Source: Thioalkalivibrio sp. (lineage in GTDB: Bacteria; Pseudomonadota; Gammaproteobacteria; Ectothiorhodospirales; Ectothiorhodospiraceae). From it: a DNA stretch of 10,245 nt. Made by a program: the position numbers and the translations under genes. This document shows, in pieces, positions 6,107 to 7,635 of this stretch; within the stretch, counting starts at the first letter, position 1, and each line of letters opens with the position of its first letter. The stretch spans positions 1-10,245 of the forward strand of contig SKNJ01000171.1 in the NCBI GenBank assembly GCA_007120575.1. Reading direction: 5' to 3'. A model generated the notes under the pieces. The model searched no databases, was not told the origin of the DNA, and saw nothing but the letters and a program-made list of their open reading frames with translations.

Positions 6107-6185
6107 GTTACCTCCCGGATGTCTGTCCGCGGGGCCCCGCAACGACTGTATTGACCCGGTGTTCGCCCCGAGATCGTTCAGTGCC

Positions 6186-6212
6186 TGCCCGGGGAAACCG
6201 GTCCCGGGGGCA
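6186..6212 (-). terminator. Hairpin just after the rsgA stop, possible 3' end structure
   Basis: On the minus strand TGCCC (6212-6208) pairs with GGGCA (6190-6186), and GGG/CCC (6205-6203 with 6194-6192) pair inside around an 8-nt loop. It lies eight bases past the rsgA stop codon. No T-run follows, so intrinsic termination would be weak; Rho-dependent termination is equally possible. Confidence 0.35.
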
Positions 6213-6219
6213 TATCCCT

Positions 6220-7101
6220 TTACACCGAACAGTGGCCCCCCAGGCTGTGCCAGGCGTCCAGGCGGTCGGCCGGCAATTGCCCCGCCGCGACCGCGGCGCG
6301 CACCGCGCAGCCAGGCTCGCTGGCGTGGTGGCAGTCGCGGAAGCGGCAGGCGTCGGCATATGCGACGAGGTCGGGGAAGCCGCGCTCCAGAACGTCGCGG
6401 GACGCGATTTCCGGGGTGAAGTCGCGGACCCCGGGCGAATCGATCCAGGCCCCGCCGCCGGCGAGCGGATACCAGTGGGCGGTGACTGTGGTGTGCCGTC
6501 CTTCTCCGGAGGCCGCGAGTTCGCCGGCTTCCGGCGTCGGCCAGTCTGCCGCGCCGTGCTGTTGCAGCAAGGCGGAGATAATCGAGGATTTGCCCACCCC
6601 GGACTGGCCCACCAGGATGTTGGTATGCCCGCGCGCGGCCTCGGCCAACGCCTCCAGCCCGTGGCCGGTGCGCGCACTGACCGCCAGCGGCCGCAGGTCG
6701 AGGTGGCGGTAGGGGGTCAGCCACTCCGGCTCCTGCGTCCTGGCGAGGTCCTGTTTGTTGAGCAGCAGGCGAGGGCGTGCCGGAAGGTTGAGGATGGCGA
6801 CCAGGAAACGGTCGATCAGGAAACGCGCGGGGGCGGGTTCCGGGGCGACCACGATCCACACGCAGTCGATATTGGCGGCGATGACCTTGCGCCGGCCAAA
6901 ACCGTCGCGCCGGATCAGGACGTTATCGCGGGGCAGGACCTGGACCACCTGTTCGCCGACGGGGTCCAGTTCCACGCGGTCGCCGCACGCCAGGTCCTTG
7001 TGGCGACGGTGCAGGCGCAGCCGACGCAGGGCTCGGTCGTCGGCGCCCACGATGTCGGCCATCTCGTTGTGGCGGGCGACGACCCGACTGGGGGTGGTCA
7101 C
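6220..7101 (-). CDS. rsgA: Ribosome small-subunit-dependent GTPase RsgA
   Basis: Circularly permuted GTPase that checks late maturation of the 30S subunit and releases from it on GTP hydrolysis. Domain order in the 293 residues is as follows. An N-terminal OB-fold (about 5-65, including CGDRVEL) comes first. The permuted G domain then shows NKQD (G4, 115-118), SA (G5, 142-143), GQSGVGKSS (G1, 165-173), RHTT (G2, 202-205) and DSPG (G3, 221-224). The C-terminal zinc motif has Cys252, Cys257, His259 and Cys265. The start is a GTG at 7101 with no ribosome site of its own; the OB fold begins at residue 5, so a downstream start would cut it. Compared with the roughly 350-residue E. coli protein it lacks the basic N-terminal extension. 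A 7-codon mini-ORF ends in a GTGA overlap with this start, and a palindromic element lies 34 bp upstream. Confidence 0.96.
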   Translation of the reverse strand: MTTPSRVVARHNEMADIVGADDRALRRLRLHRRHKDLACGDRVELDPVGEQVVQVLPRDNVLIRRDGFGRRKVIAANIDCVWIVVAPEPAPARFLIDRFLVAILNLPARPRLLLNKQDLARTQEPEWLTPYRHLDLRPLAVSARTGHGLEALAEAARGHTNILVGQSGVGKSSIISALLQQHGAADWPTPEAGELAASGEGRHTTVTAHWYPLAGGGAWIDSPGVRDFTPEIASRDVLERGFPDLVAYADACRFRDCHHASEPGCAVRAAVAAGQLPADRLDAWHSLGGHCSV

Positions 7102-7121
7102 GGACGATATGGATCGATCAT
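7098..7121 (-). other. Possible 7-codon leader ORF coupled to the rsgA start
   Basis: An ATG at 7121 opens a frame encoding MIDPYRP whose TGA (7100-7098) overlaps the rsgA GTG start in the arrangement GTGA. An AGGGA motif (7137-7133) lies 11 nt before the ATG, whereas the rsgA GTG has no ribosome site. Translational coupling would explain how rsgA is initiated. Short ORFs are common by chance, so this is a suggestion only. Confidence 0.25.
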
Positions 7122-7135
7122 GGATCAGTGTTTCC

Positions 7136-7303
7136 CTAGCCCGGATATTTCATCAATTGCACGCGCCCTCGCGGGTCTCTTGTCCGCACAGGGAATTTGC
7201 CTCAGTCGGCCGTATCGCTCCATACGCCACTCCTTCGGAAAATCCCCTGTGCGGCCCATATTCTGCGCGATCATCACGCGAATTCATGAAACATCCGGGC
7301 TAG
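7136..7303. repeat. Nested imperfect palindrome, MITE- or REP-like non-coding element
   Basis: The 168-bp segment has outer arms 7136-7158 and 7281-7303 that match as inverted repeats at 21 of 23 positions. Both arms begin CTAGCCCGGAT, followed by TTTCAT and AATT cores. Further in, TCGCG (7169-7173) faces CGCGA (7266-7270). CCGCACAGGG-type arms 7184-7198 and 7240-7254 match at 14 of 15. The centre is CGTAT (7211-7215) with ATACG (7222-7226). Pairing stays in register throughout, so the single strand could fold into one long hairpin. It is AT-richer than its surroundings at the arms and carries no ORF. The right terminus contains the phhB stop codon. No clear target duplication can be defined because the ends (CTAG) are themselves palindromic. 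No transposase is nearby, so movement would need one supplied elsewhere. Confidence 0.8.
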
Positions 7304-7635
7304 TCCAGCAGGGCGTCGACGCGCGCGGCGCAGATGAAGTCGTTCTCCGTCAGCCCGCCGACCGCATGCGTGGAGTACTGCACTGAGCAGTGGTTGAACC
7401 CCACCGCCATGTCGGGGTGGTGGTCCTCGATATGCGAGACCCAGGCGACCGCGTTCACGAACGCCATGGTCTCGTGGAAGTTGTCGAACTTGAAGCTGCG
7501 CTGGATGCTCTTGCCGGTTTCGTCGATCATCCAGCCGTTGTCGATCTGGCCCAGGGCGCGTTCCGCGTCGGGGCGCGGCATGGGTTCCGAGAAGCCCTCG
7601 CAGGCCTGGCAGTGCTTGGTCTTCAGGTCACTCAT
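7300..7635 (-). CDS. phhB: Pterin-4a-carbinolamine dehydratase
   Basis: Dehydrates 4a-hydroxytetrahydrobiopterin in pterin recycling, the partner reaction of phenylalanine hydroxylase; some relatives act instead in RuBisCO assembly or in folate-related steps. The 111 residues contain the active-site block EDHHPDM (70-76) with His72-His73, then His90 in STHAVGGLTENDF with Asp99, as in catalytically competent members. An N-terminal CQAC pair (Cys9, Cys12) is present, as in several gammaproteobacterial homologues. The ATG at 7635 lies 8 nt after the cytochrome stop, so the two are surely co-transcribed; its own ribosome site is weak, so translation may be coupled. The TAG stop (7302-7300) lies within the end of the palindromic element, so the C-terminal end was set by that sequence. 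No phenylalanine hydroxylase gene is in the window, so the real substrate is open. Confidence 0.93.
   Translation of the reverse strand: MSDLKTKHCQACEGFSEPMPRPDAERALGQIDNGWMIDETGKSIQRSFKFDNFHETMAFVNAVAWVSHIEDHHPDMAVGFNHCSVQYSTHAVGGLTENDFICAARVDALLD

Follow-up and report, generated by a model that had tools for sequence, protein, structure and literature searches.

MITEs are non-autonomous transposons in which selection is usually expected on the ends only. The IS1380 family of insertion sequences includes ISEcp1, and its transposases are DDE enzymes (PF13701) that act on double-stranded ends. IS1247, a member of this family, is described with a 5-bp direct repeat (PMC3281130). ERIC, a 127-bp repeat of enterobacteria, is described as an intergenic imperfect palindrome over its full length that is predicted to form one long stem-loop (PMC2267715, PMC2229807). 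The YPAL (RU-2) repeats of Yersinia, about 168 bp long, are palindromic with a predicted conserved stem-loop; their own inverted repeats are internal, and their target duplications are given as 3-26 bp (PMC2229807). NEMIS (Correia) elements of Neisseria are likewise MITEs with terminal repeats, and the NEMIS transcript is reported to be cut by RNase III (PMC10969869, PMC2229807). RNA structures with phylogenetically conserved properties have been proposed for the CIR repeats of Caulobacter and Brucella (PMC2229807), so a conserved RNA fold in a small repeat is in itself nothing new. REP and BIME sequences are defined as 20-40 bp palindromes without the terminal repeats or target duplication of an insertion sequence (PMC3733652).

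Here we describe a 168-bp palindrome (positions 7136-7303) in a 10,245-nt stretch of Thioalkalivibrio DNA, the whole of which we call the window. Like ERIC it is an intergenic imperfect palindrome over its full length with a single long predicted stem-loop, and it resembles YPAL in size, palindromy and the predicted stem-loop. In contrast to YPAL its inverted repeats are terminal, and its target duplication is 4 bp, against the 5 bp given for IS1247. ERIC is described with TA termini and a 7-bp repeat and lacks IS1380 ends, and the parts of PMC2267715 and PMC2229807 that describe it contain no strand test. NEMIS also has TA termini and other ends, and the parts of PMC10969869 and PMC2229807 that describe it do not include a one-strand fold conserved across bacterial classes. 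The CTAG of our element contains TA as well, so the termini by themselves do not separate it from these two families, with which it was compared by description. CIR is shorter (about 110 bp) and consists of two arms plus a linker, with a GANTC motif (PMC2229807). The element is also close to IS1380-family insertion sequences (NF033539 / PF13701), two of which (L234 and L235 in genome G401) have the outer 17-18 nt and the CTAG target class in common with it; unlike them it lacks a transposase, and no match was found between its body and theirs. Judged from sequence comparison, it is a MITE with IS1380-type ends, set apart by a body conserved on one strand. Among the papers listed by searches of an open-access library, none describes an IS1380-linked MITE by its title or abstract start, and none was found on a strand-specific conserved MITE fold in bacteria.

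The palindrome and its target site

The features of the locus are as follows.

6220-7101, minus strand: rsgA, ribosome small subunit-dependent GTPase (ORF and family match)
7136-7139, unstranded: left copy of the duplicated target CTAG (single CTAG in relatives)
7140-7299, minus strand: element proper, 160 bp (copies, core length and strand tests; RNA-like structure on the minus strand)
7140-7158, plus strand: left terminal inverted repeat, CCCGGATATTTCAT... (IS1380-type ends identical over the outer 17-18 nt, counting CTAG)
7184-7201, unstranded: left inner arm of the covarying central helix (helix 4, two-sided change in 13 of 14 pairs)
7202-7207, minus strand: symmetric internal loop, 3' strand, GACTGA on minus (faces the 5' strand in G-A and A-G oppositions)
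7231-7236, minus strand: symmetric internal loop, 5' strand, GAAGGA on minus (consensus fold and loop counts)
7237-7254, unstranded: right inner arm of the covarying central helix (helix 4, as above)
7281-7299, minus strand: right terminal inverted repeat (arm pairing and IS1380 end comparison)
7300-7303, unstranded: right copy of the duplicated target CTAG (holds the phhB-like stop codon, TAG on the minus strand)
7300-7635, minus strand: phhB-like gene, 4a-hydroxytetrahydrobiopterin dehydratase (ORF and family match; stop inside the element's CTAG)

The first-pass annotation had proposed a nested palindrome with 23-bp terminal arms, and the arms 7136-7158 and 7281-7303 do pair at 21 of 23 positions (91%). 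The inner pairs that it named are also present, and 7184-7201 pairs with 7237-7254 at 16 of 18 positions (89%). A single nested hairpin is predicted for the 168 nt on either strand. Its folding energy is -40.8 kcal/mol as DNA (z -6.0), -69.9 kcal/mol as plus-strand RNA (z -6.9) and -94.0 kcal/mol as minus-strand RNA (z -9.5), and in each case none of 200 shuffled sequences was equally stable. Without the CTAG at either end, which is the duplicated target, the element proper has a length of 160 bp (7140-7299). The right-hand CTAG contains the phhB-like stop codon, and the element therefore abuts that gene; on the other side the rsgA frame, on the minus strand, has its 5' end at 7101, 34 bp from 7136. 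The claim that the palindrome has no coding capacity held in part: no frame is open in most copies (the best single frame reaches 32 of 77 and 14 of 70), but long stop-free plus-strand frames span the element in the window (6151-7386). Several frames are open in more copies than shuffling predicts (about 5.6 of 77 and 2.4 of 70).

A phhB match was found in 29 of 30 genomes of the same genus. The phhB-rsgA distance could be measured in 14 relatives and is 25-46 bp in 12 of them. G007 has 76 bp and G002 has 314 bp, with another repeat inside the G002 gap; in the window the distance is 202 bp. Five of the 12 (L083, L086, L087, L091 and L092) lack the element and have one CTAG at the phhB stop, which provides the comparison of empty and filled gaps that the first-pass annotation had suggested. 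Because of divergence in the flanks, these gaps count as orthologous but not as empty sites exact to the base.

Across copies, the element is flanked by a duplicated 4-bp YTAR target. Non-palindromic target 4-mers occur as direct repeats in 13 of 69 copies and in 7 of 71 copies of a second set, which excludes those of genome G030, and in inverted form only once (20 versus 1 in 140 copies). Palindromic direct repeats were found in 21 and 27 copies of the two sets, the two target copies differ at one base in 13 and 6, and 21 and 31 do not have YTAR on both sides. A duplication of TA alone was considered, given that CTAG and TTAA are palindromic, and is disfavoured by the non-palindromic direct repeats; the 13 and 6 copies with one difference are also compatible with a TA duplication and a variable end base. 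Mismatched terminal pairs beside the target often look corrected towards complementarity.

Other repeats adjoin the element. In the window it meets the end of a repeat, CTAGGGAAACACTGATC..., at 7111-7139, as it does at two more places in its own genome, and a copy of this repeat also lies in the phhB-rsgA gap of G002 (loci L021, L025 and L082). A further repeat end, CTAGGAGCCTGTCGGA..., adjoins several element copies and also IS1380 copies in other bacteria, with the CTAG in common (L002, L019, L020 and L029 in the window's genome; L216, L235 (G401); L261).

Copies across the Pseudomonadota and IS1380-type ends

A search of the host draft genome (G000; 2.15 Mb, 344 contigs, 66.6% complete) with the element gave 53 matches, both strands counted. 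The 29 copies, partial copies and ends in this genome fall into 23 groups by flank, but adjoining repeats merge some separate places and a one-base offset splits a likely pair (C243/C10), so the number of distinct copies or ends is given as roughly 22-27. Matches were also detected in 13 of 57 other sampled genomes (14 of 58 with its own), at other places, and copies in several relatives are 163-170 bp long. The element is thus not a single copy conserved at one locus, and the distribution supports the mobile element suggested by the first-pass annotation. Six contigs of the draft (C10, C113, C161, C217, C285 and C310) end within a copy, which shows that the assembly is broken at this repeat. 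Copies shun genes: 10 of 66 lie inside ORFs of at least 300 nt, versus 53.6 expected at random positions.

The end motif was present in 31 of 369 genomes of the class (24 of 271 genera), against one match for a reversed control pattern. Among 40 chosen end-motif places, 27 have an inverted partner at most 450 bp away. In 13 pairs the distance from CCCG to CGGG is 159-162 bp, and the others span 26 to 243 bp. The 13 places without a partner include degenerate or cut copies and single ends without a nearby transposase. A covariance model of the element, scored on at most seven candidates per genome in a phylum sample, matched 42 of 398 genomes at E <= 1e-5 (17 of 213 genera), and most of the matches listed cover all 165 positions. 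One family (f207) accounts for 31 of the 42 genomes and eight further families (including f1) for the rest; G000 is the only model-positive genome of the window's own class in this sample. As a control, the model found no match across 171 kb in 33 IS1380-bearing loci, and searches of viral contigs (with one exact pattern), plasmids and phages gave no element match.

Several variants were seen. Derivatives of about 26-60 bp, hardly more than the two ends, occur in G057 (L113, L115), G098 (L166, L170) and G123 (L190), and G150 has a 243-bp relative with the same ends and a different, less related body (L194-L196). One copy of the host genome (L021, 1501-1668, contig C279) has its inner hairpin inverted with respect to the outer arms, and its identity to the window element is 83% in one orientation and 76% in the opposite one. 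A variant in G030 (L063, L074, L137-L148) has the ends CCCGGAAARTCC and apparent 5-bp duplications of the form WTNAW, which by eye are exact in 6 of 12 copies, and may use a different transposase. A degraded IS30-family element lies in the hairpin loop of one copy (L111, 536-1407, G057:C40) with a 3-bp TAG repeat, and another inverted-repeat insert occupies the loop in L112; hairpin loops seem to attract insertions.

The transposase-bearing element with matching ends that the first-pass annotation had recommended looking for was found, with ends identical to CTAGCCCGGAT, although in another genome. This gammaproteobacterium (G401) has two elements with the same ends and a transposase frame, one at 377-1954 of L234 with 453 aa open and one at 753-2331 of L235 with 369 aa open, whose frame is perhaps damaged. 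A further such element lies at a contig edge in G309 (L237). The L234 and L237 frames belong to the IS1380 family (NF033539, 402.7 and 361.9 bits with a cut-off of 180; PF13701, 538.2 and 456.9 bits). The first 18 nt of the window element equal the right end of L234 and the first 17 its left end, whereas the body has no match in L234, L235 or L237 beyond the ends. G401 and G309 both also carry copies of the MITE. Given this identity over 17-18 bases with an IS1380 element in a genome that carries the MITE, an IS1380 transposase is probably the mover in trans. The element is not, on this comparison, a plain internal-deletion derivative of the insertion sequence found, since its 160-bp body is itself conserved.

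A scan of named genomes with the L234 transposase gave 30 loci, eight from one Chromatiales MAG and the others from betaproteobacteria, Planctomycetes, Verrucomicrobia and more. The end motif (with at most one mismatch) lies within 300 bp of 12 of the 30, a hand count without a control in which many loci are cut by contig ends. Within the window's family, PF13701 was detected in 6 of 47 genomes, four of them above the cut-off, and not in the 66.6% complete G000; the copy in G031 has other ends, and the five other loci scanned have no near match to the element's ends. The PF01609 search for the cognate insertion sequence covered 30 of 82 matches, as scanned loci, together with 14 stretches, so other cognate insertion sequences may be missed.

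A fold conserved on one strand

The fetched loci yielded 86 unique full-length copies, of which 77 with lengths of 158-168 bp were retained; clustered at 88%, they form 28 groups. The alignment holds 24 copies, namely 22 cluster representatives and two extras; six rearranged or most degenerate representatives are excluded, which somewhat flatters the covariation figures. The RNAalifold consensus has -21.4 kcal/mol and 37 pairs on the plus strand and -56.9 kcal/mol and 50 pairs on the minus strand. In the minus-strand structure, 91.7% of alignment cells pair and 39 of 50 pairs show two-sided changes, with a covariation score of 0.433 against 0.209 for shuffled alignments (reached in none of 500) and at most 0.124 with slid partners. 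The nested fold of 165 nt, with hardly any change in length, is found again in the 42 model-positive genomes of the 398 in the phylum sample. Unpaired columns of the minus-type strand are rich in purines (3131 of 4879 and 3072 of 4668 letters in the two sets). The four G-A/A-G oppositions of the GAAGGA/GACUGA loop are kept in 69, 69, 56 and 66 of the 77 copies and in 49, 50, 40 and 36 of 70 further copies; in some copies the centre of the loop is changed to UU/UU and the oppositions are retained. Rfam gave one sub-threshold match for the window stretch (16.1 bits, with a gathering score of 33.2) and none at the gathering score for eight loci.

The two strands can be told apart because a G.U wobble reads as an A.C mismatch on the opposite strand. 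In the 77 copies, with the structure derived on the minus strand, the G.U:A.C ratio is 281:63 (159 other mismatches). Because this structure came from the minus strand, the test was repeated with the plus-derived structure, and the ratio (131:46) has the same direction. The 70 further copies, from genomes absent from the covariance model, give 421:68 with the minus-derived structure, with 528 other mismatches because the sequence-only alignment is locally poor. With the plus-derived structure the ratio is 202:43, and this is the safer figure, since the copies were found with a minus-strand model, which favours those with such wobbles. Counted as distinct wobble events the ratio is 150:57, and 16 of 17 genomes favour G.U, while in G000 itself such events do not favour the minus strand (10:12). 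C-to-T and G-to-A rates in the two sets are 0.074/0.075 and 0.088/0.099 in paired columns and 0.119/0.102 and 0.112/0.104 in unpaired columns. They are alike within each set, so a plain mutational strand bias does not account for the wobble excess; with the sets pooled, the rates are 0.189 versus 0.106 in unpaired and 0.087 versus 0.106 in paired columns. Together with the loops, the wobble excess points to one single-stranded form, most simply RNA. The retention of an elaborate RNA-like fold by one strand suggests that the body is probably functional rather than filler.

The structured strand has no bias towards the neighbouring genes (29:27 for downstream and 28:28 for upstream genes, in 66 of the 70 further copies), so a cis role tied to transcript direction is not favoured. 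An orientation bias to the downstream gene in 71 copies (46:20) rested on crude ORF calls and was gone in the further copies. No consensus sigma-70-like promoter was detected in the window copy.

Probable mobility and selection of the element

The reading that we prefer, at a probability of about 0.72, is that of an IS1380-moved MITE whose body is under selection for a one-strand fold, likeliest as RNA and perhaps cis-acting. The element is short and without a transposase gene (a 160-bp core, where up to about 300 bp is allowed), and it has terminal inverted repeats, a target duplication, dispersed copies and the ends of an autonomous element. The first-pass annotation was thus well founded in naming a MITE, given the copies here and elsewhere in relatives, the element-free gaps with a single CTAG and the transposase-bearing elements with matching ends. 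Its remark that symmetry along the full length is unlike a typical MITE was apt, as that part is conserved and strand-specific. An IS1380-family transposase would recognise the CCCGRATRTTTCAT ends of this non-autonomous element in trans, insert it into 4-bp YTAR sites and duplicate the target. On the minus-type strand, selection would have kept a nested hairpin of 165 nt whose purine-rich internal loops are fixed. The form under selection would most likely be RNA, produced when transcription of neighbouring genes reads through the element (here from phhB towards rsgA), and the preferred role for the hairpin would be a cis-acting one in processing or stability, by analogy with NEMIS and ERIC transcripts. 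This cis-acting role is the weakest step, and it is less likely than not. A bolder reading is tentative and falls short of even odds: the body would be an undescribed class of structured RNA of about 165 nt, spread through the Pseudomonadota on IS1380-type ends, and the RNA itself, by way of its conserved internal loops, would be needed for the success of the element, for example to trap a host RNA-binding factor or to affect the transcript of the transposase. The element would then be a mobile carrier of RNA and not just a passive hairpin.

The other explanations differ mainly in what they make of the body. If this were an ordinary IS1380 MITE in which only the ends matter, the body would be kept at the DNA level by descent and by a template-switch correction maintaining arm complementarity; the very short derivatives and the corrected look of the terminal pairs fit this. 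Correction or a DNA cruciform, however, treats the strands alike and predicts neither an excess of wobbles on one strand, which already holds in the 70 copies outside the model, nor conserved unpaired loops, and we regard it as improbable. Selection could instead act on one strand as single-stranded DNA, for instance when it is on the lagging strand or while the element transposes. This would explain an asymmetry without bias to neighbouring genes or a detected promoter, and G.T wobbles and G-A oppositions form in DNA too; yet IS1380 DDE transposases act on double-stranded ends, which the direct 4-bp duplication fits, and there is only a small chance that this is the selected form. A trans-acting small RNA gene with its own promoter, spread by transposition, has an equally small chance: structure and loops are conserved regardless of the neighbours' direction, but the window copy has no sigma-70-like consensus, and no conserved extra sequence extends beyond the hairpin.

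Two proposals concern the class of element. A REP/BIME-like repeat, which the first-pass annotation had also named, would agree with the palindromic, intergenic and multicopy character but fails at 168 bp versus 20-40 bp and on terminal repeats with a 4-bp duplication; the ends, moreover, are those of an IS1380 element, and such an assignment is hardly credible. Halves of the element flank the degraded IS30-type gene in L111, as a deletion derivative of an IS30-family element would require, but this IS30 sequence lies within the hairpin loop, with inverted ends of its own and a 3-bp TAG repeat, and a second IS30 copy (L123) is without the palindrome's ends. IS30 parentage is ruled out, and the piece is a later insertion into the loop.

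A widespread palindromic repeat is now linked to IS1380 transposases, probably as its movers. The near-constant length and one-strand fold of its body across distant bacteria make it testable whether the RNA of a MITE matters for its spread.
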